Source: Hyaloperonospora brassicae (Eukaryota; Oomycota; Peronosporomycetes; Peronosporales; Peronosporaceae). From it: DNA of 64,000 bases. A program made the position numbers and the translations under genes. Below the pieces are notes generated by a model that worked only from the letters and a program-made list of their open reading frames with translations, was not told the DNA's origin and did not search any database. The stretch is taken from positions 248,001 through 312,000 of the forward strand of contig CANTFL010001482.1 in the NCBI GenBank assembly GCA_947650285.1. Reading direction: 5' to 3'. Shown here in pieces: positions 7,989-23,000 of the stretch; the first letter of the stretch is position 1, and each line of letters starts with the position of its first letter.

Positions 7989-8408
7989 TCACCACTGCGC
8001 GATGATCTTCTCGTCCCAATTGCGCGCAAAAATAGTGTGCGAGTCAATTGTCAGGCAGAAATCCTCGTCCATGATGACCTTCTCCGTCTCGTACCGCCCA
8101 GCAGTGGGCCCCTACACCGCATTCGATCAAACACAAACCATAAGTTGCAGGTAGTAATTCAACAGCCACCCCCAAAGAAAAATCACCAGACGCCTAGTCA
8201 ATGACCAACCGTCGCATTGATAGCGTCGATCTGAGACGACACAAGTTGTGCGCGGTGACAGTCGTCTTCCCCAACGAGCTCATGAACACGTCGACGCACG
8301 ATCGCTCGTTCCTTGTCGGTTAATTCTAATCATAAATGCTAATCTTGCGCTTTTCCGGCGCCGCTGCATTGTCGAATATCGACCGCTGCGACTCCTAGAA
8401 CCTAAGCA
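7989..8408 (-). pseudogene. GT60-like GlcNAc-transferase, 3' part, broken
   Basis: The minus strand encodes the core of a GlcNAc glycosyltransferase of the Skp1-hydroxyproline GlcNAc-transferase type (GT60). A frame ending at 7989 reads G-P-T-A-G-R-Y-E-T-E-K then M-D-E-D-F-C-L-T-I-D-S-H-T and N-W-D. This matches the family pattern GPT.ARY and the metal-binding (L)xIDSH block. Further upstream on this strand come I-F-D-N-A-A-A-P-E-K-R-K-I-S-I-Y-D, which resembles the family's early strand-helix unit, and R-R-R-V-H-E-L-V-G-E-D-D-C-H-R-A-Q. Several stops and frameshifts are present, and the frame ends right after N-W-D, so the catalytic domain is incomplete. It continues into 16402-16835 on the far side of element 1. 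Family assignment is from memory of the motif. Confidence 0.7.
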
Positions 8409-8799
8409 TGTAACGAGGCACACCCTTGCGTGAACTTAACGCAAGGGTATCGCACCCCGACAGACGTACAAGAGGCAAACGAGGAAGCGTAGATAAGGGG
8501 AAAGTAAAACTGTTGTATTAATATGATTAAGTCGTTTTGTTACTGTCTCTCCGTTTGACTTAACTTAATTATGCTAATGTAACTGAGTGTATGGTGACGT
8601 CTCGTCACCACTCATTGCGCGCGTCTTGCGGCGATTGGTGGGTTGATATCATCAAGATATCAACCAATGAGCAGACCCTTTGGTCGCCTCACCAATATCA
8701 CCACTATCGGTGATATTGTTCAAATAATATTCAACTTACTATTCTTTATTGTCACTTTCTTTAAAGTGACAATTCCATGTAACGGACTGTCCCGTTACA
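8409..8799 (-). repeat. Element 1 3' LTR
   Basis: 391 bp, nearly identical to 16004-16396. Differences cluster in the first 55 bp (plus-strand reading), and there are only about five substitutions afterwards. It contains at least six perfect hairpins with stems of 8-11 bp, such as 8422-8431/8439-8448, 8641-8650/8656-8665 and 8748-8758/8763-8773. The terminal hairpin 8778-8785/8792-8799 includes the LTR end itself. Confidence 0.95.
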
Positions 8800-8811
8800 T
8801 CACCCCCTTAA
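8800..8811 (-). other. Polypurine tract of element 1
   Basis: On the minus strand the 12 bases read TTAAGGGGGTGA and directly abut the 3' LTR. This is the expected place and composition for the plus-strand primer of a Ty3/gypsy element. Confidence 0.75.
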
Positions 8812-8928
8812 CTGATAGTCACCGTGTGACTATCGAAAATATGGCGGCCACCCGTTGGGCACCATTGGGACAGGGAGCACTTGTTGGGTCCGTTCCATTC
8901 ACTTTCCACCCGACCTCGCATAGATAAC

Positions 8929-10536
8929 ATGTCTATGCGGGGTGACTCAAGACACGCACAGCCCGCTGCTGTGCCAGTCTCTGCGGCAGACGATTCGTCG
9001 TCTGCTGCTCGTTCTTCGCCTGAAGCAAGAGGTACTGCAGGTGCACGCGGTACAGCACCGCGTGCGCATGATGACCCTGACGTTGAGGTCATCTATTCTG
9101 GCGAGTCAGACGTGTCTGACTCGGCCAATGTTCCAGAGGCGTCTCGCTCACCGGCGACGCCTCAGTATTCGCCAAGACCACTGCCGAACGAACGGACTCG
9201 TGATTTGCATCACAGTCTGTTCGGCAGTGATGATGATGATGATCAGGGTGGTGAGTTCTATTCTCCACCACCGCCGGCTCGTGCGTCTTCGCACGAGCGT
9301 GATGACGATGGCGCGAGCCGTCGTCAATCTGGGAGCCGTGGTACCGACAAGGGTACCACTGTGAAGCGTGATGAGCTGAAGCCGTGGCGTTTGCCTGAAC
9401 GGCTCATCAATAGCTTCTCTCACGAGACAAGCCAACACCATCGAATTCCTTTATTCGATGCAACTGTGCTTCACGGCTTGGGTCTTAGTGCGAGCAACTT
9501 TCGCGCTGAGGAAGACTTTTATCTCGATGTCTTCCTTCGACATCGATGGTACAACGGCAACCAAAAGCGTGACAAGGCCTCGCTTTTGGCTGCGTGGAAT
9601 GCGTTCGTCCAAAACGTAAAGAATTTTGGACGAGAAGGGTGGCTTAAGAAACTTGAGGCGACACGCCTCAGGTTCGAACGGCGAACGCCAACCGGTGCCA
9701 GGTACCGGTTGCACTGTTTGTCGAGTGAGGCAGGCATTCCTTGCCTCACTTGGGGAGACCCTTGTTCGAGTTGTGTTGACAACTCGCAGCGTGCACATAG
9801 GGATGTGTACTCCCTAAATTCGCCCTGGGGAAGGGCACACATCTCGGAGGAGATGCGTGACGCGATTGCAAACTTGCAATACGTCCACAAGCGCCTAGGG
9901 CGCGTGTTTACCGATGGACCACAGGACTCATCGGATGGGTCTCGTCATACTGGCGGACGAGACCTTCAACATCCATCAACAGCTGAGAGCGGGGCTCCCA
10001 GCTGTTCCAAGAGGGTGGATACCCCCGCCACTGGACGAGGTAGCTCGTCCTTGATCCTGAATCGTCACGGTGATTCAAGATACGCTCCACTAGGAAGCGT
10101 TGATCACCGTGAGCATCCACCAAAGGATGTGGTGGAGGAGGAAAGACCTCCTCCAGATGATTCTGTTCACCATCTCGACCCTTACGAGATGGATCGCGCA
10201 ATCGATGAATTGCGCGATGACTTGAAGCACGAGCGCGACCGGCGCTACGCTTTGACGGATACCGTGCGGAAGAACCGCAAGGATCGCGAGGCTGATCGGG
10301 CGAGGGATCGCGCCGATTATGCCACAGCGAAGCTTCAGGTCGAGCGGGATGTCCGCTCCCTTTTCGGCGAGCTGGCGACAGCTCGCGGGGAGATATCTCG
10401 GTTGAGCTCCGAGATATCTTATCTGCACGACCAGACGGATCTTCTGGAGCGCGAGCGCAAGAACTTGATGGATGTTCTTGAACGTGGGGGCTATCTTCAT
10501 CGGAAGAAGAAGGCTCGTACTGACAGTACGGCCTGA
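8929..10536 (+). CDS. Intact antisense ORF of element 1, coiled-coil protein
   Basis: This is a 535-codon ORF on the strand opposite to gag-pol. It starts at ATG 8929 (M-S-M-R-G-D; the frame is open further upstream, without an ATG) and ends at 10536. It lies between the 3' LTR and pol and overlaps the chromodomain end of pol tail-to-tail over 9908-10536. Residues 1-150 are low complexity: Ser/Ala/Pro/Asp-rich with runs such as D-D-D-D-D. Residues about 152-270 form a compact unit with W, F, R and Y spaced as in a folded domain ([31 protein letters not shown]). Residues about 270-415 are again Ser/Pro/His-rich. Residues about 419-525 are a charged coiled coil. I cannot name the family. An open frame this long next to a broken gag-pol argues for a real gene, but coding has not been tested. 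Confidence 0.7.
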
Positions 10537-10885
10537 GCCTCCCCACGTAAAACGTAGGATGCGTGCGCATCCTACGTGGCAATTCGATCGTGTATGCATT
10601 GCCCTTGCGATGCAACACTCTAAATGGCCCAATGTACTTCGGCAGTAGTTTACTACTGCCGACACTAGTGACTGCATGTCCAGGTAAGTTTACCGTAGAC
10701 AGTAGTACTAGGTCATTAACTTTAAATGAAAGAACATTTGCTCTTCCATTCTTGTCTGCGTTCCGTTTCTGACGGTCCACCGCATTTGCGATGGAGTCCT
10801 GAACGAAACGGACTACCGCCTCTCGAGTCAGCAGGAAGTTCTCTGCTGACTCGTTGTTTTGTCTTTCAGTGCGCTTCGTGCGCAC
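9908..10885 (-). CDS. Pol C-terminal region with chromodomain
   Basis: This open frame of 325 codons is in the same frame as the integrase at 11144-12160 and is its downstream continuation. Residues about 40-120 resemble the integrase C-terminal GPY-type segment ([10 protein letters not shown], then H-P-T-F-Y-V). A Ser/Arg/Pro-rich linker follows. The last 65 residues are a chromodomain: F-L-V-E-R-I-L, then Y-L-V-Q-W-R-G-Y and S-W-E-P. In chromoviruses this domain guides integration, usually to heterochromatin. The first M is probably internal; the natural protein would run on from the integrase. A TAG codon ends the upstream integrase frame at 11144. Confidence 0.85.
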
Positions 10886-11143
10886 TGCTAAGAGATTGTT
10901 CTCTTCTTCAGCGAGGTTGTCTTCTTCCTCGCTGGCATAATCGTTGGCGATGCTGAAAATACCAGCATCATCATCCGAATCAGTAATAGCGTCGCCGCTA
11001 TTATTGAGGTGATCTTCTTCATCGATGTCGACTTGATCGACATCGGCATCATACGCGACGACGTTAGCGTCGACACGTGATGAGCAAGAGCCAAAACGGT
11101 TTTTGCTCGAGCGAGTCCCTTCCCCCCTTATCCAAGAGTCATA

Positions 11144-12160
11144 CTATAGAAGGGCGGGAACACGTGGATGGCGTAAGCCATTCACGTAAAACGGTGTGTG
11201 CTGTGTGGAAGCATGCACCGATTTATTGATGGCGAATTCCACCATGGGTAGGAATTCGCTCCAACTCGGAAACGAGTGGACATATCCTCGAAGGATCTCT
11301 TCGAGGACACGGTTCGCACGTTCCGTCTGACCATCTGTTTCGGGATGGTCAGAAGTAGACATCTTCAATCGTGTTCCCAATGTGCGGAACACGGTTTGCC
11401 AAAATGCCGCCGTGAACCGAGGGTCACGGTCGGATAAGAGTTCACGGGGTAACCCGTGGAGTCTAAAGACCGTGTCTAGAAAGACACGAGCACAACCTTG
11501 AGCCTTGATCGACTCAGGGACTGCAGCAAGATGCACCATCTTGCTGAATCGGTCAACAAACACAAGAATACCATTATTCTTGTGAGCGTCTTCGGGAAAA
11601 CCGAAGACGAAGTCCATTGAAACGGACTGCCAGCACTCTGTCGGAACAGGCAGAGGCTGCAATGGCGCACGGGATGAAGGACTAGGCTTCACCCGTTGAC
11701 AAACCTCGCAAGCACGTATGTACTTGCGGACAAACTGATACTGGCGTGGCCAGTAAAAGTCACGACTTACCGTGAGGTAAGTCTTTTCTCTACCACGATG
11801 GCCGCCTGTTGGGGCATCGTGACACTCATACATGATGCGTAAACGCAAATCATGATGAGCGGGTACGACGACACGAGGCGTGTCGTCGGCAACAGATGTA
11901 TAATATAACAGTCCGTTACGTGTACAATACCGATCCGATGAGGATCGGTACAAAGCCGGTAAATCCCTCATGGATTTACTGGATGGATTCACCAGATGAT
12001 CCATCAATCGCAGAAGATCCTTATCTTCTGCGTATGCCTTTCGTACGTCGTCAAGTAAGCTTGACGACGGGACACTGGCTCTCAGTGTCGCAACAGTGGG
12101 CTTATCCTCACTGTTGGATTTGTGCGTCCGGCTCGAAATCGGGCCGGCGCGAGAGCGCAT
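11144..12160 (-). CDS. Integrase domain of element 1 pol
   Basis: A 338-codon frame with a complete retroviral-type integrase core. The N-terminal HHCC zinc finger is visible (H-D-A-P-T-G-G-H ... C-E-V-C). The catalytic Asp, Asp, Glu are in M-D-F-V-F-G, L-L-S-D-R-D-P-R-F-T and D-G-Q-T-E-R-A-N. The frame ends in a TAG at 11144 just after a conserved V-N-G-L-R-H-P motif, where relatives normally continue into the linker and chromodomain, so this stop is a lesion. It overlaps the end of the RNase H frame (12108) in another frame, so a frameshift separates the two. Confidence 0.92.
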   Translation of the reverse strand: MRSRAGPISSRTHKSNSEDKPTVATLRASVPSSSLLDDVRKAYAEDKDLLRLMDHLVNPSSKSMRDLPALYRSSSDRYCTRNGLLYYTSVADDTPRVVVPAHHDLRLRIMYECHDAPTGGHRGREKTYLTVSRDFYWPRQYQFVRKYIRACEVCQRVKPSPSSRAPLQPLPVPTECWQSVSMDFVFGFPEDAHKNNGILVFVDRFSKMVHLAAVPESIKAQGCARVFLDTVFRLHGLPRELLSDRDPRFTAAFWQTVFRTLGTRLKMSTSDHPETDGQTERANRVLEEILRGYVHSFPSWSEFLPMVEFAINKSVHASTQHTPFYVNGLRHPRVPALL

Positions 12161-12989
12161 CAGCGACGACGTTGAGTCGTCCTGGTTTATACTCCACGGA
12201 GATGTTATACTCCGCGAAGAAAGACAGCCACCTCGCCATCCTTTGCGAGAGGTATGGGCTGTTTACGGCCGTGCGTAATGACGCATGGTCGGTATACACG
12301 ATGAACGGTCTATCTCCCAATAGATAGACACGAAACTTAGCCAGTGCATACTTCATGGCAAGGAGTTCCTTGTCATGCACTGGGTAATTACGCTCAGCTG
12401 CTTGCAGCTGACGCGACTGATAACAGATGACGCGCTCCGCGCCATCTGCGTCGAACTGCACTAACGCACAGCCGATTGCAAAATCGCTGGCGTCACAGAC
12501 CACATGAAATGGTCTGTCCTGATCTGCAATCGCCAATATCGGCGATTGCATCAAGCTTTGCTTGATACCCTCAAAGGAACGCTGGCACTCAGCGTTCCAT
12601 GACCACTTGACATTTTTCTTATGCAAGCAAGAAAGATGTACCGTCATCTCGGCGTAGTTGCGAGAGTACTTATGCAAGTACGCCGCTAGAACAATGAACT
12701 TCCTTAGTCCCTTGACATCGACTGGCACTGGCCAGTCGGTGATCACCTTGATCTTTTCGGGATCAGGGCGTACGCCGTGTTTACCCACGATGCACCCAAG
12801 AAGTGGTATTTCGCTAGCCGCGAATATACACTTCTTGAGGTTGGCATACAACTTATGCTTGCGCATAGGTTGAAGGACTTGATGAACGTGAGTTCTATGA
12901 ACTTCAACGTCCGTCTTTCCGTCCATAGCCCGACTATGGACGAACACATCGTCGAAGTAACTCGGTGCGAAATCACACACCGGTCTCAA
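12108..12989 (-). CDS. RT C-terminal half and RNase H of element 1
   Basis: A 293-codon frame. It opens just before the RT active site Y-F-D-D-V-F-V-H and runs through the thumb/connection (L-G-C-I-V-G-K-H-G-V, D-W-P-V-P). It then enters RNase H, whose acidic residues lie in C-D-A-S-D-F-A-I, H-D-K-E-L-L-A, Y-T-D-H-A-S-L and V-A-D-A-L-S-R-R-P. RT copies the element's RNA and RNase H removes the template. The N-terminal half of RT is in a different frame (12973-13731). A frameshift at about 12973-13000 falls in the region just upstream of the active site. Confidence 0.92.
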   Translation of the reverse strand: MRPVCDFAPSYFDDVFVHSRAMDGKTDVEVHRTHVHQVLQPMRKHKLYANLKKCIFAASEIPLLGCIVGKHGVRPDPEKIKVITDWPVPVDVKGLRKFIVLAAYLHKYSRNYAEMTVHLSCLHKKNVKWSWNAECQRSFEGIKQSLMQSPILAIADQDRPFHVVCDASDFAIGCALVQFDADGAERVICYQSRQLQAAERNYPVHDKELLAMKYALAKFRVYLLGDRPFIVYTDHASLRTAVNSPYLSQRMARWLSFFAEYNISVEYKPGRLNVVADALSRRPDFEPDAQIQQ

Positions 12990-13731
12990 CAGATTTGTAA
13001 CACATCTGTTGAACGTTGCAGGGGCATGGCTCAGCCCCTGTAGGCATCACTAGCCAATCCCACAGCATACCGCTGGGGGTGCTTACTGCCGTGAACGGGA
13101 TGTCCCGTTCACGAATGAGGATCTCATAAAATCTATCCATCAGATCCATGGACGAAAAGATGGTACTCTTTGAAATACCATCTATGATTACGTCCTTCCT
13201 CGGTATCGGCGTCTGAGCCGGTACCGTTGCAGCATTCAACTTGTTGAATGCGTGCACTATCCGCCATCCTCCTGTGGCCTTTCGCACACAGAAGGTCGGA
13301 GAGCTGTGAGGGAATGTTGATTTCCTCACATGGTCCGCTGCTAAGCGATCGGCAAAGAACTTGTCGATCGCTAGTACTTGTTCACGAGGCAGTGTCCACT
13401 GCTTCATGACACAGTACTTCGAGCCCGGTTTGAGCTCGATCTCGTGTCGAGTGCCTTTGTCCTTAGGCAACTCGCAAGGTACGGATTCAGGGAATACGTC
13501 CTTGAATTCGATCAAATCCTTATACAAAGGATTTGCCTGAAGTGACTCCCAGGATTGAGACGTGTATCGCTCAATCCGAGTCTTCTCATCGAGGACACTT
13601 TCGTCCATCGATGAGCTGCTGAGAACCCGTTCGTTCTCAGCAAATACTGTCGCCGACCGAATATCGATCAACATACTCATCCTCTGTGACGAGTATGCAG
13701 ATCTGCTTGACTTTGCCACTACGCAGATCAC
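12973..13731 (-). CDS. RT N-terminal half of element 1
   Basis: A 252-codon frame containing the pre-RT linker and the RT fingers/palm: F-F-A-D-R-L-A-A, W-R-I-V-H-A-F-N-K-L-N, P-I-P-R-K-D, S-S-M-D-L-M-D-R-F-Y and F-T-A-V-S-T-P. The first catalytic Asp is in S-M-D-L. After W-L-V-M-P the frame leaves the conserved sequence, and the following block is found in the neighbouring frame at 12989, so the gene is broken here. Confidence 0.9.
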   Translation of the reverse strand: MICVVAKSSRSAYSSQRMSMLIDIRSATVFAENERVLSSSSMDESVLDEKTRIERYTSQSWESLQANPLYKDLIEFKDVFPESVPCELPKDKGTRHEIELKPGSKYCVMKQWTLPREQVLAIDKFFADRLAADHVRKSTFPHSSPTFCVRKATGGWRIVHAFNKLNAATVPAQTPIPRKDVIIDGISKSTIFSSMDLMDRFYEILIRERDIPFTAVSTPSGMLWDWLVMPTGAEPCPCNVQQMCYKSVETGV

Positions 13732-14456
13732 GCAAGAACTGTTTCGGTTCTAGCGTTGGCAACTGAGTTATCTCCGAAGTTAACTTCGGAGGCACAATCA
13801 GATCAAGCGTATAAGCGCCTACGCTTGATCCGTCATTAACCAAGACGTTCAACGTCTCGGTTACTTCCTGGGAACTTCGTTCCACAGGTTGCTGAAAGCC
13901 TAATCCTTCAGCAAGTGACTATTTGAGGAATTCCTTCCTCAAGTACGTGGGGACTTATTCCCTCGACGTCTTCTGACTGTGGCTGTGCAACCACATTCAG
14001 ATACCGATCCTCTACGGTCGACTCTCCAGTCGACCTAGGATATCCGTGTTGCCGCTTGTAAGCAACCGGTTTACTCTTGCTAGGATGTCGCCCGCTAGGC
14101 GTGCATCCACGTCCCGGTCCACTCGAATTATTCGAGTGGTGGAACTTCGGGGCAGCCTGTACTCCTGTACAGTCGCCGGGAGCTTGCTCCACAGTGTAGT
14201 GATCAACTACACTGTGATCTTGTGCAGTCGTGCTAACGACCGTACCGCAAGTGAGGCCATCGCACTCACTCGCAGAACATCCACACGCTTGTGGACGCTC
14301 CAAGATGTTCATCAGATGGCCATCTGATGAACAAGCAGCAGGCATCTTCACGGATCGATGCTGCCAGCTCACCCTTGGCTCGTAACTTTCTGAGCCAAGG
14401 TAATCCCAGGATGACATCAAATTTGTCATCCAGATCCAGTACGATGAAGTCATCAT
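13637..14456 (-). pseudogene. Protease-to-RT linker of element 1, frameshifted
   Basis: Two frames carry the linker. The 182-codon frame 13908-14456 picks up after the protease with Y-E-P-R-V-S-W and continues through a Cys/Ser/His-rich hydrophilic stretch. The 82-codon frame 13637-13885 then carries L-N-V-L-V-N-D-G-S-S-V and T-L-D-L-I-V-P-P, up to a frameshift near 13660 into the RT frame. No catalytic residues are expected here. Hairpins such as 14306-14319/14320-14333 lie in the overlap with the protease frame. Confidence 0.75.
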
Positions 14457-14679
14457 CGTACTGTTCGCCCTCTACCGTGTAGTGGATTCCTACTACACGT
14501 TTCTCGACGGTAATCGATGCGCCTGTTGCAAGGCGCACCGTCATCCTCGTGCGGGGAATGTCGCGCTCAACGAACTTGAGCCTACGACCCTCTAGTGACT
14601 GGCGACAAACAAAGTTGTTCGACGCCCCATAGTCGACTAGGGCACGAAGCGACAAATCATTTGTCGCTTCCAACTTCAA
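14266..14679 (-). CDS. Aspartic protease of element 1
   Basis: A 137-codon frame with the retropepsin-like core: A-L-V-D-Y-G-A-S-N-N-F-V as the active-site loop, then R-L-A-T-G-A-S, F-I-V-L-D-L and V-I-L-G-L-P-W-L. The residue after the catalytic Asp is Tyr, where Ser, Thr or a small residue is usual in retropepsins. The protease would process Gag-Pol. A frameshift follows G-L-P-W-L, after which the natural continuation is found in the 13908-14456 frame. Confidence 0.85.
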   Translation of the reverse strand: MKLEATNDLSLRALVDYGASNNFVCRQSLEGRRLKFVERDIPRTRMTVRLATGASITVEKRVVGIHYTVEGEQYDDDFIVLDLDDKFDVILGLPWLRKLRAKGELAASIREDACCLFIRWPSDEHLGASTSVWMFCE

Positions 14680-14801
14680 GGTGATGAGCGAAACGTCATC
14701 ACCAGGTGCAGAGACACACTATGATTGTGTATCTGGAGCAACTTTCGTCAAGAGATTCGCAAATTCTCTTGAGGTTGCTGGATCAGTAGGGCGCTCCGCC
14801 C

Positions 14802-15044
14802 CTACTGACCCCGACCATTTTTTGATGGTCCGTCTCGCTGTTGCGGCTTCGCAACAGCGCTGGACCCACGCCCATTGCCCTTTCTGGCAAATGGTCGTCC
14901 ATTTCGCTCAGTACTGTTTGGTACTGGGCGTGGAGCACTACACTCGTATGCGTAGTGCCCTAACTTCTGACAGCGATTGCACCTCTGCAATCGCTTGTTG
15001 TTTGAAGAGCGAGGTCTCTCGCTCTCAACATAGCAGAGGTCCAT
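14802..15044 (-). CDS. Gag zinc knuckle of element 1
   Basis: An 80-codon frame with one CCHC zinc knuckle, C-N-R-C-Q-K-L-G-H-Y-A-Y-E-C, followed by an Arg/Gly/Asn-rich basic tail. This is the nucleocapsid part of Gag, which packages the element's RNA. It is in the same reading frame as the capsid piece at 15111-15488 and is separated from it by an in-frame stop. Confidence 0.88.
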   Translation of the reverse strand: MDLCYVESERPRSSNNKRLQRCNRCQKLGHYAYECSAPRPVPNSTERNGRPFARKGNGRGSSAVAKPQQRDGPSKNGRGQ

Positions 15045-15110
15045 TGGTTCTGGACCTCCGATCTCTTGTCGTCTTGGTGGACGATAAGAGTTTGAGCTAG
15101 CATGAGCTTG

Positions 15111-15488
15111 TCAAATGCTAAAATCTTCCTGTTCCGCGGCTGATAACGCATCTTCCAGCGTATTCAGCTCAAGGCGGAACAGGTGGATCCTGACGGGCCC
15201 TTCTGCGAGCCCTTGCATGAACACCGTAATCAACGTGTGTTCATCAACTGGGTTAGCAGTTATACTACTCGCTAGGAGTCGTATATGTTGTGCGTAAGCG
15301 TGCACATCACGCTTACCCTGCTGGAGTTTCAGGAGCTCAGAACGAGTCCTGAACTCAGCTTGTGGCGGCTCAAACGTTTGTCTGAGCCGGGATTTGAAGT
15401 CATCTAGCGACCTAAACACATTTGGGTCGCTACTCTCGAGTCCCAGGGACCAAGTTTTGGCACGCCCTGCCAAGTGGGTCTGAAGCAA
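15111..15488 (-). CDS. Gag capsid domain of element 1
   Basis: A 125-codon frame of the retrotransposon Gag family: L-A-G-R-A-K-T-W, F-K-S-R-L-R-Q-T-F, Q-G-K-R-D-V-H-A-Y and F-M-Q-G-L. It ends in a stop at 15111, with the zinc knuckle following in the same frame. The true upstream part lies in the 15600-15959 frame, so the ATG at 15488 is not the natural start. Confidence 0.88.
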   Translation of the reverse strand: MLQTHLAGRAKTWSLGLESSDPNVFRSLDDFKSRLRQTFEPPQAEFRTRSELLKLQQGKRDVHAYAQHIRLLASSITANPVDEHTLITVFMQGLAEGPVRIHLFRLELNTLEDALSAAEQEDFSI

Positions 15489-15599
15489 ATGTGAGTTTCA
15501 TTTGCTCATCTTCGACGCGACGAGCCCTTAGAGGCTCTGTAGAGTTCGACAAACCATAGTAACAGGGAGTCCTCCGGGACTCCACTGTACTTGGAGATG

Positions 15600-15959
15600 T
15601 CAACCTTCATGACCTCGGGACGACGCGCATGTGCCGTCCCGCCCAACAGCAGCATGGAATTGCTGCTGTCTCAACAGCTCTGTCTGTTGAGCACCGAGTT
15701 CTCTCAACTGCTCGGCCTGTTGAGAGCCTTGCTGGCAAAGCAAGGTTACTTTCTCTCTTTCGGCGACAAGTTCATTTTGAATAAATTTGGCGATAGCGGC
15801 ATGTTGTTGGTCTCTGTCTAGAGACTCCAACATGGCGCTAATGGCGAACTCGCCTACGGTAGAACTCATTCGTTCTACCGCACTCCATTCGATGTCACTC
15901 AAATGGGTAAATTCTTCACGCGTGGCGTGAAAGGTCTCTTCATCATCCAGCATGTTCAT
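15600..15959 (-). CDS. Gag N-terminal region of element 1
   Basis: A 119-codon frame from ATG 15959, 24 nt past the primer-binding site, so this is the likely Gag start. It is acidic at first, then a Gln/Glu/Leu-rich helical stretch (Q-Q-A-E-Q-L-R-E-L). The conserved continuation shifts to another frame near 15600-15650 before the capsid domain. Confidence 0.75.
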   Translation of the reverse strand: MNMLDDEETFHATREEFTHLSDIEWSAVERMSSTVGEFAISAMLESLDRDQQHAAIAKFIQNELVAEREKVTLLCQQGSQQAEQLRELGAQQTELLRQQQFHAAVGRDGTCASSRGHEG

Positions 15960-15982
15960 GTTGGATGCTGTGGTCCTTGGAC

Positions 15983-16001
15983 GGACTACAAAGTGCTACC
16001 A
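15983..16001 (-). other. Primer-binding site of element 1
   Basis: On the minus strand the 19 bases begin TGGTAGCACTTTG, two bases inside the 5' LTR. TGG pairs with the CCA end of a tRNA, and this position is where Ty3/gypsy elements prime minus-strand synthesis. The tRNA cannot be named from this alone. Confidence 0.7.
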
Positions 16002-16003
16002 GG

Positions 16004-16396
16004 TGTGACGGAGCACACCTTTGCGTGAACTTAACGCAAGGGTTGAGCGTGCCCCGACAGACGTACACGAGGCAAACGAGGAAGCGTAGATAAGGGAAAA
16101 GTAAAACTGTTGTATTAATATAATTAAGTCGTTTTGTTACTGTCTCTCCGTTTGACTTAACTTAATTATGCTAATGTAACTGAGTGTATGGTGACGTCTC
16201 GTCACCACTCATTGCGCGCGTCTTGCGGCGATTGGTGGGTTGATATCATCAAGATATCAACCAATGAGCAGACCCTTTGGTCGCCTCATCAATATCACCA
16301 CTATCGGTGATATTGTTCAAATAATATTCAACTTACTATTCTTTATTGTCACTTTCTTTAAAGTGACAATTCCATGTAACGGGCTGCCCCGTTACA
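16004..16396 (-). repeat. Element 1 5' LTR
   Basis: 393 bp, the partner of 8409-8799. On the plus strand it reads from TGTGACG to CCCCGTTACA and is followed directly by the target duplication AAGCA at 16397-16401. Confidence 0.95.
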
Positions 16397-16401
16397 AAGC
16401 A

Positions 16402-17169: not shown

Positions 17170-18188
17170 CATTCATTGTCCACTCGATTCATTGCTCACT
17201 CCAATCATTGCTTCCCCCATTTTTCTTCCCCTATTCCATTTCGAATCTATTCAGTCTTCGCCCCATTCCGTTCACGCTGCTCTGTTTGTATTGTTGATCC
17301 CGTGAGCCAATCGTCGCATCTTCATCCGTCTCCCTCGACTGCCAGTCATAGACACCGCTGGCGTGCCGCTTCCTCCGTCTTTGCACCAGATAGTGGCCGC
17401 GTCCATCATGACAACACAGGACGCCGCTGTCCCTCTCGTGGGCAAGAAACTCAGGAGCACGTTGGGCGCAATGGCCAACGAGAGCGCGTCGATCGGCGTG
17501 TCGGCGTTTGCCCGTCTTCAGATGGCGAAGATGGGGTGGGCGGTCGGCAAAGGCCTGGGCAAGCACGAGCAAGGCGTGCAGTCCCACGTGAAGGTGAAGC
17601 GGCGCGTGGAGCTGCAGGGCGTGGGGGCCGAGAAGAAGGAGGTGCACGAGCAGCAGAGGCAGTGGTGGTACAATGTGTACGACTCGGTTGCCAGTAAAAT
17701 TGTGGTCGACGAGGAGCTGTCCGATGCTGACGAGACCGATCGCGCAAAGAAGAAGCGCAAGCGAGCGAGACGGCTGGAGCGACAAACGTCCGGCAACAAA
17801 AGGAAAGACCGACCCGAGCAAGTGCAGTGCGAAGTGCGCATTCCGACGGCCGAAGAGCTGTTTGCTGCGACGGGTGGAAAGCTGTTCGGTCGTCGGGCCT
17901 ATGGCTCGTGCAACGGGAAGCTGAAACGCGACGAGCTGCAGCTCCAAAAAGCAAAGCTGCAGGAGAGTCAAGATGCAGAGACATCGGGTGCATCGAGCAC
18001 TGACGTGATGGAAGAGCAAGAAATGGGACAAAGAAGGAAGAAGGCCAAGCAAAGTGAAGCTGGTGGGATAGAAAAGACGGAAAAGATGGAGAAGGAGAAA
18101 GAAAAGGAGAGGGAGAAGAAAGAAATAAGAGGGAGAAGAAAGAGAAGAAGAAAGAGAAGAAGCAAGCTGCACGTGGCGACTCGATGTG
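17170..18188 (+). repeat. Inverted duplication G, left arm
   Basis: About 1.0 kb matching the reverse complement of 22267-23240 with very few substitutions. It covers the promoter region and almost all of the G-patch gene. The only strong difference is the purine-rich tail at 18060-18165, where length changes alter the reading frame. Homology ends abruptly, at about 18188 and 22267. Confidence 0.92.
17194..17209 (+). promoter_or_regulatory. Possible oomycete core promoter of G-patch gene
   Basis: GCTCACTCCAATCATT resembles the oomycete initiator plus flanking element (GCTCATTYY-NCAWTTT). It lies 199 bp before the ATG at 17408 and is present, with one change, in the inverted copy. The distance is long for an oomycete 5' UTR, and later CCATTT-like sites at 17240-17265 are alternatives. 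Confidence 0.35.
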
Positions 18189-18193: not shown

Positions 18194-18733
18194 ATTGGCA
18201 AATTGAGCTCAATATGATGTTAGTGGTCGTACAAAAGTACTGTAAGCCTCTTTAAGTTAATCGGTTTGGCTTGCAATGCCATAGCCCGGGAAGTTGACTC
18301 ACGTCTTGTATCGGCTTTTGGTCATTGCGTTTTTATAGCACGTCCAAACTGTTAGTATACCACGCATGTATTGCGACCTGATGACACACATTGATACTTT
18401 GCGTTCGATACCGATACAGTCTCGGGTATTGCAGGTCAACACATTCAGGACCTTGTGAGCAACCCACAACATTGTGTGTGTTCTTCATCTAGCACAAGTT
18501 CTGCTGGTGTCTTTTATTCATTGCGAGAAAGCTGTCCGCTCATATTGTTTTAAACCTCTTCTGCCGTGCGACAATTTTGCGGTTGCGCCCGACGAAATAA
18601 CACAACTCATGCAAACACGACAAAAGTAGGCGTCCACAGCGCGAGGCAAGCCAATGTTGCGCATCTTCTGTTGCTTACCCGTCGTCGATCTTCCGAGCAA
18701 CTTGTGTCGCCACCAGTCCACGTCAGACATAGC
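18194..18733. other. Intergenic region upstream of RFT1
   Basis: 540 bp between the G-patch stop and the RFT1 ATG. I see no gene. A possible oomycete initiator, GCTCATATTGTTTT, lies at 18538-18551, 183 bp before the ATG. The RFT1 frame is open upstream to a GTG at 18566, but no ATG occurs before 18734. Confidence 0.5.
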
Positions 18734-20449
18734 ATGAGCAGCTCCGATAGTGAAGTGCTCTCTCGAGCCTTCCACGGCAATTCCTACCGCTTCGTGCAGC
18801 GGTTGCTAACGTTTGTGGCCAACTCAGTCGTACTGCGCACATTGCACCTTCATGTAACGGGTGCCGTCACAGTGCGTCTCGAACTCACACTGGCCTCGAT
18901 CTTCGTGTTCCGCGACGGCTTTCGCCTGGCGTTTCTCCGAATGCCGTCCATTGATACGACAGGCGCCGGTATGAAACAACTGCAGTTGCAGCAATTGGTA
19001 AACGCCGCGTGGCTATCGACTGCCATCACGTGGGCACTCGCAGGTCTGTTGCTGCTGTCTACGGCGCTCTTAACGTCGTCCGAGACGGTGGACAGTGGCG
19101 ACGCGGTATCGAGTTACTCGGTCGTGTTTGCAATGTACTGTGGTGCTGCAATGATTGAGGCGCTGGCCGAGCCCATGTTCCTCTTGTCGCACGCTAGTGT
19201 GCTCGTGAGCTGGCAAGTCGCAGCACAGAGTGCTGCCTTTTTGGTGCGAGCGGCCGTGCAGTATGTTGGAGTGGTCGTGCTGCAGCTAAATTTGATTGCA
19301 TATGGACTCGCAGAGCTTTTGTATGCAGTGACAGTGTTGCTCGTGTTTGTGCTGTTCTTTTGCCGACGAATGTATCGTCCTTCGGATACCGACAACAAGT
19401 TCGCGTTCACAACGATGACTGAACTGTTGCCGAAACGGACAGAGCCAGGTATTGGGTGGTGTCACGCAGAACTGAAGACGTTATTGGTACCGCTGGGTGT
19501 GCAAAGTGCAGTCAAGTATCTCCTTACTGAAGGCGACAAGTGGGTGCTGACAATGTTCGCTTCGCTGCATGACATGGGAATCTATGGAATGGTGTCAAAC
19601 CTAGGATCACTCGTGCCGAGGATTGTCTTCTTGCCTATTGAAGAAGCGACGAAGGCTATCTTCAGTAAGCTTGCGCTTGCACAGAAGCAAAAAAGTGATG
19701 ACGAAGATGGCAAGAGAGTCAAGATGGATGAGCTGGCGAATGGACAGACATTGCTGCTTGTGCTGCTCAAGCTTATGAACCTGGTGGGGCTGGTGTTTCT
19801 ATGTTTCGGAACAAGTTATGCAAAAACGTTGGTGCTGTTATTGTACGGAGCTGAGAAAGTTGGGCAAGGAGTAGGCGCCGCATTGGCTGTCTATTGCGCC
19901 TACATCCCTCTCTTGGGAGTGAATGGAGTTTGTGAAGCTGTGGTGCATGCGATCGGAAACGACCAGGAACTCATACATCTCAACAAGCTACTCGGTGTGT
20001 TCTTCGCCATATACGCGGTCAGTGCGCTTGTGTTCATGCAAGTTCTCGACTGGGGTACCTTTGGCCTGATCCTGGCAAACTGTGTGAACATGGCCTGCCG
20101 GATTCTATATTGTCTGGCATTCCTGGCCTCGTACTTCCGCCAAGTAGCTCCCAATGTCCAGACGGCCAGTGCTTTCGCGAATGGATTGTCCTTTTGGCGT
20201 CAGTCTTTGCCAGATCGACTCGTAGTGTCTGCATTCGTGGTTTCGATGGGCGTGACTGCAACCTCTCAGCGTGTACTGCTCAATTCCGGGACCGAGAAAC
20301 CACCCTCGTTGATGTTTCACATGCTGCACGTGGCAGTGGGCGCACTTTGCTTTGCTGGAACGGCGCTTGTGCTCATTCTGAAGGAGCAGCGTCTGATACG
20401 TGATCAGGTGGCAGCCCTTCGAGTTCAGAGCAAGCCTCACAGCGACTAG
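18734..20449 (+). CDS. RFT1: RFT1-type dolichol-oligosaccharide translocation protein
   Basis: A 571-residue multi-pass ER membrane protein, within the usual 540-575 of the family. RFT1 is required for Man5GlcNAc2-PP-dolichol to reach the ER lumen for N-glycosylation, though its direct flippase role is disputed. The N-terminus shows the family's first unit (F-V-A-N-S-V-V-L-R, then A-S-I-F-V-F-R-D-G-F-R). The diagnostic central block at residues 262-315 reads L-L-T-E-G-D-K-W-V-L, then G-I-Y-G-M-V-S-N-L-G-S-L and R-I-V-F-L-P-I-E-E. Many hydrophobic segments follow, the last near residue 540. Start at ATG 18734; the upstream open frame is not conserved-looking. The gene is intronless and intact. 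It lies between the two inverted G-patch copies. Confidence 0.95.
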   Translation: MSSSDSEVLSRAFHGNSYRFVQRLLTFVANSVVLRTLHLHVTGAVTVRLELTLASIFVFRDGFRLAFLRMPSIDTTGAGMKQLQLQQLVNAAWLSTAITWALAGLLLLSTALLTSSETVDSGDAVSSYSVVFAMYCGAAMIEALAEPMFLLSHASVLVSWQVAAQSAAFLVRAAVQYVGVVVLQLNLIAYGLAELLYAVTVLLVFVLFFCRRMYRPSDTDNKFAFTTMTELLPKRTEPGIGWCHAELKTLLVPLGVQSAVKYLLTEGDKWVLTMFASLHDMGIYGMVSNLGSLVPRIVFLPIEEATKAIFSKLALAQKQKSDDEDGKRVKMDELANGQTLLLVLLKLMNLVGLVFLCFGTSYAKTLVLLLYGAEKVGQGVGAALAVYCAYIPLLGVNGVCEAVVHAIGNDQELIHLNKLLGVFFAIYAVSALVFMQVLDWGTFGLILANCVNMACRILYCLAFLASYFRQVAPNVQTASAFANGLSFWRQSLPDRLVVSAFVVSMGVTATSQRVLLNSGTEKPPSLMFHMLHVAVGALCFAGTALVLILKEQRLIRDQVAALRVQSKPHSD

Positions 20450-22265: not shown

Positions 22266-23000
22266 TCACATCGAGTCGCCACGTGCAGCTCGCTTCTTCT
22301 CTTTTTTCTTCTTTCTCTTTCTCTCTTTCTTCTCCTTCACTCCCTCAGCTTCACTTTGCTTGGCCTTCTTCCTTCTTTGTCCCATTTCTTGCTCTTCTAT
22401 CACGTCAGTGCTCGATGCACCCGATGTCTCTGCATCTTGACTCTCCTGCAGCTTTGCTTTTTGAAGCTGCAGCTCGTCGCGTTTCAGCTTCCCGTTGCAC
22501 GAGCCATAGGCCCGACGACCGAACAGCTTTCCACCCGTCGCAGCAAACAGCTCTTCGGCCGTCGGAATGCGCACTTCGCACTGCACTTGCTCGGGTCGGT
22601 CTTTCCTTTTGTTGCCGGACGTTTGTCGCTCCAGCCGTCTCGCTCGCTTGCGCTTCTTCTTTGCGCGATCGGTCTCGTCAGCATCGGACAGCTCCTCGTC
22701 GACCACAATTTTACTGGCAACCGAGTCGTACACATTGTACCACCACTGCTTCTGCTGCTCGTGCACCTCCTTCTTCTCGGCCCCCACGCCCTGCAGCTCC
22801 ACGCGCCGCTTCACCTTCACGTGGTACTGCACGCCTTGCTCGTGCTTGCCCAGGCCTTTGCCGACCGCCCACCCCATCTTCGCCATCTGAAGACGGGCAA
22901 ACGCCGACACGCCGATCGACGCGCTCTCGTTGGCCATTGCGCTCAACGTGCTCCTGAGTTTCTTGCCCACGAGAGGGACAGCGGCATCCTGTGTTGTCAT
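22266..23000 (-). CDS. G-patch domain protein, copy 2
   Basis: A 244-residue protein almost identical to copy 1 (17408-18193) over its first 210 residues. The differences I noticed include Gly20 to Ser, Ser59 to Tyr, Arg84 to Lys, and Met to Ile in the T-D-V-M-E-E-Q block. The G-patch is at about residues 30-76 with M-G-W-A-V-G-K-G-L-G-K. The Lys/Glu tail is shorter and ends A-A-R-G-D-S-M. ATG at 23000 by correspondence with copy 1. The upstream region, including the candidate initiator, is duplicated as well (to about 23240), so both copies could be transcribed. The two genes flank RFT1 and point towards each other. Confidence 0.88.
   Translation of the reverse strand: MTTQDAAVPLVGKKLRSTLSAMANESASIGVSAFARLQMAKMGWAVGKGLGKHEQGVQYHVKVKRRVELQGVGAEKKEVHEQQKQWWYNVYDSVASKIVVDEELSDADETDRAKKKRKRARRLERQTSGNKRKDRPEQVQCEVRIPTAEELFAATGGKLFGRRAYGSCNGKLKRDELQLQKAKLQESQDAETSGASSTDVIEEQEMGQRRKKAKQSEAEGVKEKKERKRKKKKEKKRAARGDSM

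Follow-up and report, generated by a model that had tools for sequence, protein, structure and literature searches.

What keeps short perfect inverted repeats along the whole length of a retrotransposon, in its coding regions as well as its LTRs? The question is raised by a Ty3-type LTR retrotransposon with a chromodomain in Hyaloperonospora brassicae, located on the minus strand at 8409-16396 of the 64,000-nucleotide stretch analyzed here (the window). The locus has the defining features of a Ty3/Gypsy chromodomain element: two LTRs (96.2% identity over 393 columns), a target-site duplication, and the minus-strand Pfam domain order gag, protease, reverse transcriptase (RT), RNase H, and integrase with chromodomain. 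It shares all of these, including the 5-bp length of the duplication, with the Ty3/Gypsy chromoviruses and differs from them in its hairpins and in an antisense open reading frame (ORF) adjoining the 3' LTR. This ORF, scanned as the stop-to-stop frame 8830-10533, matched no Pfam family; it has 10 protein relatives (35 to 87% identity), four of them named Peronospora matthiolae and one Hyaloperonospora arabidopsidis, and is conserved in downy mildews. The RT-RNase H region has at least 120 protein relatives (the best 120 of 2188). Relatives outside the host genome are at the protein level only, and scans of IMG/VR (queried by protein as well as by alignment) and of a prokaryote genome collection returned no relative. 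Within the host genome, the hairpin-bearing family has at least 127 RT matches and is large and young. The features of the window element, with their hairpins, are as follows.

8404-8408: target-site duplication AAGCA, left copy
8409-16396, minus strand: Ty3-type LTR retrotransposon with chromodomain (Pfam domains)
8409-8799, minus strand: 3' LTR; hairpins 8422-8448, 8592-8610, 8641-8665, 8693-8718, 8748-8773, 8777-8800
8800-9910, no strand assigned: region of the antisense ORF only; hairpins 8814-8834, 8917-8939, 8986-9005, 9043-9065, 9102-9123, 9136-9163, 9277-9298, 9338-9359, 9439-9460, 9524-9546, 9561-9589, 9605-9633, 9689-9711, 9724-9750, 9767-9786
8881-10536, plus strand: antisense ORF of 551 aa, adjoining the 3' LTR and read inward from it
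9911-11143, minus strand: C-terminal part of integrase (Tf2-1-like SH3, PF24626, 1.6e-13; chromodomain, PF00385, 1.4e-13); hairpins 9938-9964, 10133-10155, 10170-10192, 10193-10218, 10367-10386, 10391-10419, 10552-10577, 10639-10662, 10824-10853, 10867-10887, 10909-10934, 10984-11003, 11023-11045
11147-12262, minus strand: integrase zinc and core domains (PF17921, 3e-21; PF00665, 2.5e-9); hairpins 11232-11259, 11285-11307, 11326-11353, 11370-11393, 11524-11546, 11561-11584, 11587-11609, 11764-11783, 11866-11888, 11928-11950, 11959-11979, 12009-12032, 12046-12069, 12091-12116
12111-13749, minus strand: RT and RNase H, two open pieces in the window copy (12111-13046, 12976-13749; PF17919, 4.8e-34; PF17917, 6.2e-34; PF00078); hairpins 12308-12329, 12394-12411, 12495-12517, 12525-12550, 12576-12598, 12719-12738, 12920-12942, 12986-13012, 13090-13113, 13158-13183, 13232-13251, 13513-13535, 13552-13577, 13617-13642
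13750-14718, minus strand: N-terminal part of pol, with aspartyl protease at 14269-14718 (PF08284, 1.4e-8); hairpins 13772-13791, 13801-13830, 13889-13914, 13923-13942, 14016-14035, 14119-14139, 14190-14216, 14306-14333, 14373-14400, 14409-14431, 14437-14463, 14476-14499, 14646-14670, 14680-14703
14719-16003, minus strand: gag, with zinc knuckle piece 14805-15110, capsid piece 15114-15497, and N-terminal piece 15603-15995 (PF03732, 2.7e-17; PF13917); hairpins 14748-14772, 14783-14808, 14836-14859, 14972-14995, 15006-15025, 15036-15058, 15217-15244, 15294-15316, 15405-15432, 15484-15506, 15646-15669, 15670-15691, 15701-15726, 15857-15880
16004-16396, minus strand: 5' LTR; hairpins 16189-16207, 16238-16262, 16290-16315, 16345-16370, 16375-16396
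16397-16401: target-site duplication AAGCA, right copy

The preliminary description of this locus had listed 31 arm pairs, all 31 of which are exact reverse complements in place. An exhaustive scan for perfect, nonoverlapping stems (at least 8 bp, loop of 2 to 12) brings the total in the element to 95, compared with a mean of 1.5 and a maximum of 5 in 40 dinucleotide-preserving shuffles; 30 stems reach at least 10 bp (0.03 in shuffles). The hairpins occur about once per 70 bases over the full length, coding parts included, and even spacing was ruled out (coefficient of variation, 0.71 versus 0.67 for random placement). Most stems are 8 to 11 bp, with a maximum of 13 bp, and loops are mostly 4 to 7, with no obvious common motif apart from A-richness. 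The majority of stems have loops of 2 to 12; for stems of at least 8 bp, loops of 23 to 40 show only a small excess (9 versus 1.6). In a second copy, L010, density (12.9 to 14.6/kb) and mean stem length (8.9 to 9.7 bp) were similar in every region (LTR, gag, pol, and antisense ORF). Synonymous shuffling abolished the excess in this copy, in pol (63 stems versus 1.4, maximum 5) and in gag (15 versus 0.5, maximum 3; 60 shuffles each), indicating that coding-part hairpins are built mostly from silent sites.

All 20 fetched copies are likewise saturated (71 to 110 stems each). The rest of the window (56,012 bases) has 13 stems, with 7.4 expected. RFT1 (18566-20449), described as free of hairpins, indeed has no stem of at least 8 bp. 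The same had been said of a second element given without coordinates; a Ty3 element at ~31.5-35.2 kb has no such stem, although its match to the one meant is uncertain. The probability that chance, a composition artifact, or a single odd copy produced the pattern is essentially negligible, as both kinds of shuffle and 20 of 20 copies are contrary to it.

Comparison among copies bears on what maintains the hairpins. With L010 as the reference, variants common to at least four copies occurred at 0.012 per site in stems, 0.040 in the rest of the element, and 0.087 in loops (stem versus rest, P = 8e-11), whereas private variants, which are mostly postinsertion changes, differed little between stems and the rest (0.146 versus 0.157, P = 0.26). 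Chance stems of 4 bp, an ascertainment control on the same reference, had a shared rate of 0.045. Shared rates in stems, rest, and loops were 0.016, 0.035, and 0.054 with L018 as the reference and 0.010, 0.044, and 0.068 with L016, so that over the whole element shared changes in stems lie 2 to 4 times below the rest and 3 to 7 times below loops. At noncoding sites (0.015, 0.117, and 0.141), shared variants were ~8-fold rarer in stems than in the rest and private variants 1.4-fold rarer. Low shared variation in stems combined with about equal private variation points to selection in the element's own cycle. Selection probably keeps the hairpins while the element cycles, with decay following insertion. 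In LTR/UTR, stems are poorer in private variants as well (0.206 versus 0.291 in the rest), and private variants in loops exceed those of other sites, so that preinsertion selection may not account for all of the contrast in these regions.

Changes in the two arms are also coupled, as the preliminary description had suggested examining. Double Watson-Crick changes numbered 19 types among 19 copies, compared with 7.0 by permutation (maximum, 13 over 300 permutations); the value for all 21 copies (53 versus 12.4) is inflated by mosaic copy L027, truncated copy L014, and a hypervariable stretch, and the cleaned value is used here. Such coupling would also arise if the element's RT switched templates by folding back, copying arm onto arm in each cycle in a mutational ratchet filtered only at the protein level. 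Such a mechanism has been described for rRNA genes (PMC8794818) and proposed for worm mitochondria (PMC6649704). It would fit the strict Watson-Crick pairing of the stems, which end sharply and give way to background-level pairing, the exact inversion of the loop at 8431/8439 in a single copy, and a hypervariable hairpin at ~9240-9275 that has different perfect versions in different copies. However, unselected concerted copying would leave stems at the neutral rate, whereas shared variants are reduced 2- to 8-fold there, the factor varying with the reference copy and the region. Arms hardly encode rare residues (1 of 104, versus 23 of 341 elsewhere); plain departure from the majority residue occurs at 34 of 104 versus 88 of 341 (P = 0.17). 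Neither arm is preferentially the changed one (87 versus 82), which rules out a directional donor arm. Stems in noncoding DNA are not longer than elsewhere, those ending where silent extension was possible (20 of 54) are close to expectation (18.3), and 16 of the 19 double changes are transitions. Template switching, put forward earlier as a possible cause, is unlikely as the explanation, with the lowered stem rate and the arms poor in rare residues speaking against it as the sole cause; the single loop inversion suggests that it may act occasionally.

If selection during the cycle maintains the hairpins, the form of nucleic acid on which it acts should leave traces in pairing rules and strand symmetry. 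Predicted folding energy is far below that of shuffles across the whole element, as would be expected of genome-scale ordered RNA structure (RNAfold z, -9.6 for sense, averaged across 19 windows of 400 nt). Folding of the antisense strand is just as strong (z, -9.7; mean MFE, -173.6 versus -172.5 for sense), and another copy gave -8.4 for sense and -8.8 for antisense with strand-matched shuffles. Perfect stems numbered 108 in the mispair comparison, with 138 when G.U was allowed, 133 with A.C, 128 with C.U, and 120 with A.G. G.U and A.C were about equally frequent at stem ends (19 and 18 of 110) and among single changes common to at least two copies (14 and 15). Among sense-strand stems with a single mismatch, A.C exceeded G.U (7 versus 3 in the window copy; 130 versus 65 summed over 20 related copies). 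For a relative, C103, the counts were 66 G.U and 56 A.C. Selection on sense RNA should show as tolerance of G.U and better folding of the sense strand, and neither was observed. Stem length falls with GC content (rho = -0.38, P = 1e-5), shorter stems being GC-rich; this trade-off holds predicted stability near -12 kcal/mol (standard deviation, 2.84 versus a null of 4.15; 0 of 300). Sense-strand loops are A-rich and C-poor, with only a small A excess in noncoding loops. Loop composition and the A.C excess are two asymmetries against full strand symmetry, the latter of which would favor the opposite strand.

A structured sense RNA genome alone, selected because it helps packaging, compaction, or the binding of Gag in virus-like particles, would fit the very low folding energy, the A-rich, C-poor loops, and the buffered stability, and the distinct Gag proteins of sister families could read their differing hairpin sizes. 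Against it are the lack of any G.U advantage over A.C (at ends, in stems, in shared changes, in one-mismatch stems, and in the C103 relative), the equal folding of the antisense strand, and the scarcity of longer loops, which makes this reading quite improbable. Of the earlier proposal of selection for a structured RNA genome, selection on structure is supported (low shared variation, paired changes, energy buffering, and use of silent sites), but a structured RNA genome does not capture the lack of a G.U advantage or the equal folding of the two strands. Alternatively, hairpins in single-stranded cDNA might be selected during reverse transcription, for example because they limit misannealing or shield the cDNA. 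In favor of this are the equal intolerance of G.T and A.C, the T-rich loops of the minus strand (the complement of the sense loops), the sense A.C excess, which becomes one of G.T over A.C on the minus strand, and the lowering of shared but mostly not of private variation. The present data do not directly tell cDNA from RNA, we know of no such function in Ty3 elements, and we regard this alternative as very unlikely.

Hairpin writing is not unique to this element in the host genome, as a sister Ty3 family carries a shorter-stem version. In the sister, represented by a pol piece only (in the main family, LTRs and genes are alike in hairpins), no stem of at least 7 bp with a loop of 2 to 12 was found, but there are 145 hairpins of 4 to 6 bp, compared with 40 expected (synonymous-shuffle maximum, 69). 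These short hairpins show no codon register bias (20, 21, and 25), and two fetched sister copies gave no clear stem constraint (0.029 in stems, 0.026 in loops, and 0.037 in the rest). Hairpin centers are exactly conserved between the families in 5 of 71 cases (0.5 expected; maximum, 4 over 272 shifts), so few that most hairpins of the two families seem to have arisen separately. The remaining families tested had no comparable excess. Copia elements (5 stems in 3.3 to 3.7 kb) were rejected as a second case, 3 of the 5 in L051 being tandem TGACGTCA palindromes, and the decayed C103 relative (L046 and L049) was dropped as a hairpin-free outgroup because of its broken frames. At homologous pol third positions, its identity to the main family was 0.70 to 0.77 in stems, 0.64 to 0.75 in the rest, and 0.54 to 0.56 in loops. 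Paired Watson-Crick differences were in excess in L049 (23 of 41; slid controls, 8 to 10 of 27 to 34) and not clearly so in L046 (14 of 28; slid controls, 6 to 10 of 21 to 34).

We give even odds to the explanation that the element carries a second, whole-length layer of information, a strand-symmetric, family-sized Watson-Crick hairpin code under selection, perhaps against strand pairing. The layer would consist of local hairpins at ~14/kb, of the stem and loop sizes given above. Selection would favor hairpins that form in both polarities, or in a kind of nucleic acid for which G.T is about as bad as A.C; the candidates are sense plus antisense RNA and single-stranded cDNA. Each strand, folded on itself, might then be hard to pair with an antisense transcript, an RdRP product, or a small interfering RNA guide, and every stem may be kept under Dicer length. 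As for small-RNA production, another of the causes proposed earlier, stems of up to 13 bp look short for Dicer. An antisense ORF running inward from the 3' LTR would make antisense RNA likely; we assume that such RNA covers the entire element. Our leading guess as to the benefit is that the hairpins hinder pairing with other RNA.

In favor of this reading, Phytophthora 25-nt small RNAs arise mainly from transposable elements (PMC3804510). Silencing could also cut the other way. In P. infestans, inverted repeats yield more small RNA per Mb than any other source (PMC3804510). By analogy, the hairpins might attract silencing, though the P. infestans repeats are presumably much longer. RNAi evasion leaves the differing stem lengths of the two sister families without explanation. 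A broader reading, which we offer as a tentative minority view, is that related Ty3 families of one genome are each written in their own hairpin size (4 to 6 versus 8 to 11 bp), strictly Watson-Crick, strand-equal, and selected in replication, the hairpins serving to mark the identity of the element's nucleic acid or, tuned in size, to shield it (antisilencing or selective packaging).

The closest known systems differ in telling ways. RNA viruses have genome-scale ordered RNA structure, which is large scale, selected, and inclusive of coding regions; the element resembles them in low folding energy throughout a replicating genome and its coding regions, but has almost only local hairpins (loop of 2 to 12) of set stem size, no benefit from G.U, and equal folding of both strands. 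Template-switch hairpins in RNA genes (PMC8794818) share perfect stems, paired changes, and occasional loop inversion, whereas in the element shared stem change is lowered and hairpins cover a whole mobile element. The coding palindromes of Nematomorpha mitochondria (PMC6649704) are likewise perfect inverted repeats in protein genes without an excess of imperfect ones. They show a bias against the 3:3 codon register, there in long repeats and here in pol stems of at least 8 bp (7 versus 26 and 21; the 15 gag stems, at 4, 5, and 6, show none). The Nematomorpha palindromes are mitochondrial, at least 15 bp long (mean 43, up to 142), and many are species specific, and their authors suggest conversion, not function; the element is a nuclear LTR retrotransposon with shorter and dense stems, LTRs included, none reaching 15 bp, and with lowered stem variation. 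The literature searched contained no large-scale selected structure from LTR retrotransposons, no strict strand-symmetric, size-set form of one, and no described counterpart of a family-sized hairpin layer.

For the biology of such elements, a large young family offers in its natural copies an evolution experiment that parts transposition-phase selection from postinsertion decay. The pattern also cautions against treating the silent sites of such elements as neutral clocks. If silencing is the target, the hairpins would amount to a sequence-wide transposon counterdefense.

The element in the window and the ORF on its opposite strand are as follows.

8409-16396, reverse strand: Ty3-type LTR retrotransposon, recognized by Pfam domains, LTRs, and a target duplication
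8881-10536, forward strand: antisense ORF of 551 aa, its beginning adjoining the 3' LTR, without a Pfam family

The element has Retrotrans_gag, zinc knuckle, RVP_2 protease, RVT_1, RNase H, integrase zinc and core, SH3_Tf2-1, and chromodomain domains. Its LTRs (391 and 393 bases) are 96.2% identical, its target duplication is AAGCA, and its genes are split into several open pieces. The antisense ORF has 10 relatives (35 to 87% identity) in Peronospora, Hyaloperonospora, and contigs without an organism name, 5 of the 10 being named from downy mildews; among the RT matches listed, sequences of Peronospora and Phytophthora are the nearest that carry an organism name, which points to an oomycete host, probably a downy mildew. 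Within an aspartate-repeat stretch of this ORF, a hypervariable hairpin (9236-9275) differs between copies, at least two versions being perfect.

All 31 inverted repeats listed in the preliminary description are exact, and a full scan of the element found 95 nonoverlapping perfect stems (≥8 bp; loop, 2 to 12), with 1,722 of its 7,988 nucleotides lying within stems. The comparison with shuffled sequences proposed there bore the excess out: dinucleotide shuffles gave a mean of 1.5 stems (maximum, 5; n = 40), and synonymous shuffles of L010, a further genomic copy, left 1.4 stems in pol (observed, 63) and 0.5 in gag (observed, 15). Outside the element, the window has 13 such stems in 56,012 bases versus 7.4 expected. 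Loop sizes in the element peak at 4 to 7, and nearly all of the excess falls at loops of 2 to 13. Longer loops showed a small extra excess, with 9 stems of ≥8 bp versus 1.6 at loops of 23 to 40; in another copy, L039, loops of 13 to 40 gave 21 stems of ≥7 bp versus 4.3.

Hairpin saturation is a real phenomenon and a property of the family. A 1.5-kb DNA query matched at least 40 genomic places at 94 to 100% and an RT query gave at least 127 matches, many equal in score; all 20 examined out of 39 further copies have 71 to 110 stems each. Stem density in L010 was 14.6 per kb for the LTR and 5' UTR and 14.3 for the 3' UTR and LTR; gag had 12.9, pol 13.9, and the antisense-ORF part 13.5, and regional mean stem lengths were 8.9 to 9.7 bp. 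The hairpins are constructed in silent and noncoding sites alike. A search for regular spacing found only random spacing. One copy is a mosaic (L027), in which the LTR, gag, and protease part (positions 1 to 2300) derive from a hairpin-poor relative. Positions 150 to 1150 have no stems, and among at least 40 places scored the front has one other close match (91%), the decayed relative C103; beyond the front, the copy is mostly 94 to 98% identical to L010.

In coding regions, the hairpins are, on sequence comparison, written mainly with silent sites. Relative to a sister Ty3 family in the same genome, one-sided changes in 1:3 pairs fell on the third-position side 45 times and on the first-position side 14 times, 33 of 42 2:2 pairs were complementary already and unchanged, and arm identity was close to that of the remaining sequence (first position, 0.59 to 0.60 versus 0.64; second, 0.73 to 0.78 versus 0.72; third, 0.33 to 0.35 versus 0.36), from which the predominance of silent sites follows. 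Neither arm was preferentially changed in this comparison (87 versus 82). Against 120 relatives, rare residues occurred at 1 of 104 arm positions and 23 of 341 elsewhere, and deviation from the majority residue was somewhat higher in arms (34/104 versus 88/341; P = 0.17). Third-with-third pairing was depleted among pol stems of ≥8 bp (7 versus 26 and 21; chance stems in the three registers, 0.30/0.43/0.27) and showed no depletion in gag (4, 5, and 6).

Variation was compared among 19 copies (the window copy and 18 of 20 fetched, leaving out the mosaic L027 and the truncated L014), with L010 as the reference, 17 others counted, and variants in at least 4 copies termed shared. Private variants per site were similar in stems (0.146) and the rest (0.157; P = 0.26), with 0.188 in loops, whereas shared variants were far rarer in stems (0.012) than in the rest (0.040; P = 8e-11) or loops (0.087). 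Other references gave the same order (Table). Chance 4-bp stems, an ascertainment control, gave 0.186 private and 0.045 shared, and 5- to 7-bp stems were likewise constrained. In noncoding parts, private variants differed as well.

Variants per site by structural class
Set: stems; rest; loops
Shared, reference L018: 0.016; 0.035; 0.054
Shared, reference L016: 0.010; 0.044; 0.068
Shared, noncoding parts: 0.015; 0.117; 0.141
Private, noncoding parts: 0.206; 0.291; 0.424
Shared, pol third positions: 0.015; 0.040; 0.129
Private, pol third positions: 0.143; 0.151; 0.307

Paired stem changes between copies, a check suggested at the outset, were also in excess: with pairs at 9230 to 9280 left out, 19 types were found versus 7.0 by permutation (maximum, 13; n = 300), or 38 cells versus 9.3, and 16 of the 19 types were transitions. 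Template switching, listed earlier as a possible cause, may supply some variation in the hairpins, as one copy carries an exact, template-switch-like inversion of a loop (8432-8438, in hairpin 8422-8448), but copying leaves the lowered stem rate unexplained. Because arm-to-arm copying would produce paired changes at the neutral rate, the lowered rate needs selection, which we consider highly likely.

The sister family (RT identity to the hairpin family, ~67% aa and 64% DNA, in the 3-kb pieces L035 and L037) occupies at least 40 genomic places at 95 to 100%. No stem of ≥7 bp with a loop of 2 to 12 occurs in either piece. The sister family is nevertheless not hairpin free: both of its strands fold more stably than chance predicts (z, −1.7 to −2.5; other Ty3/Copia pieces L042, L043, and L030 and the control gene RFT1, −0.2 to 0.8), owing to a flood of 4- to 6-bp stems with loops of 3 to 6 (145 versus 40 in L035; 132 versus 41 in L037). 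Synonymous shuffles gave a mean of 47 (maximum, 69) versus 145; 5- to 6-bp stems numbered 66 versus 9.6, and such hairpins cover 58% of the piece versus 16% in shuffles. Few of the sister's hairpins have exactly the same center as one in the larger-stem family, although the number is above that obtained by shift (5 of 71 versus 0.5). The limited comparison of the two copies, L035 and L037, revealed no clear stem constraint; the indications of selection are therefore confined to the family with larger stems. Short-stem z scores were 3.8 for the hairpin family itself, −1.3 and 0.2 for C103, and −0.9 to 1.3 for L030, L031, L042, L043, L050, L052, and the window at 31 to 36 kb.

Three other observations concern short hairpins or palindromes elsewhere. 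Positions 36000-64000 have a slight excess of 4- to 6-bp stems with loops of 3 to 6 (479 versus 400; z = 4.0). The same short hairpin flanks RFT1 in opposite orientations (17936-17962 and 22446-22472), with overlapping ORFs at each place; a G-patch gene may have been duplicated here in inverted orientation. Copia elements (L051:538-611, L052:537-611, and L053:112-187) carry tandem palindromic TGACGTCA sites, which resemble CRE-type promoter sites.

Searches of an open-access library, at the level of the titles listed, turned up no description of such an element. The nearest described systems are worm mitochondrial palindromes (PMC6649704) and template-switch hairpins (PMC8794818); PMC3804510 covers the small-RNA background of Phytophthora.

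As for what is selected, stem length trades off against GC (rho = −0.38; P = 1e-5), which shuffles do not reproduce, and the spread of predicted stem energy is narrow (SD, 2.84 versus 4.15 in a free-composition null, 0/300; L018, 3.14 versus 4.28), while pairing past stem ends is at the background level. G.U was not favored over A.C, whether at stem ends (19/110 and 18/110), in stems counted with one further pair type allowed (G.U, 138; A.C, 133; C.U, 128; A.G, 120), or among single changes common to at least 2 copies (14 and 15; with all 21 copies, 19 versus 22). Folding across 19 windows was equal on both strands (mean z, −9.6 sense and −9.7 antisense; control stretch, −0.7 and +2.4 on the opposite strand), both strands being scored against shuffles of one strand; strand-matched shuffles of L039 gave −8.4 and −8.8. 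At silent and noncoding sites outside stems, shared variants were at 0.084 where both folds pair, 0.192 for sense-fold-only pairing, 0.152 for antisense-fold-only pairing, and 0.242 where neither pairs. These three lines suggest a target that is strand symmetric, as far as tested, and selection probably acts in this way. Two asymmetries speak against full symmetry: A.C leads in one-mismatch stems (7 versus 3 for G.U in the window copy; 130 versus 65 summed over 20 related copies), and sense-strand loops, mainly coding ones, are A rich (0.32 versus 0.25) and C poor (0.18 versus 0.255). Protection against pairing with other RNAs (silencing) is the leading candidate function, though less likely than not; selection might instead act on single-stranded cDNA, or the hairpins might serve packaging. 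Since private changes would be mostly postinsertion and shared changes would come from the active lineage, the constraint would be mainly part of the element's own cycle, and selection within the active lineage most probably maintains the hairpins.
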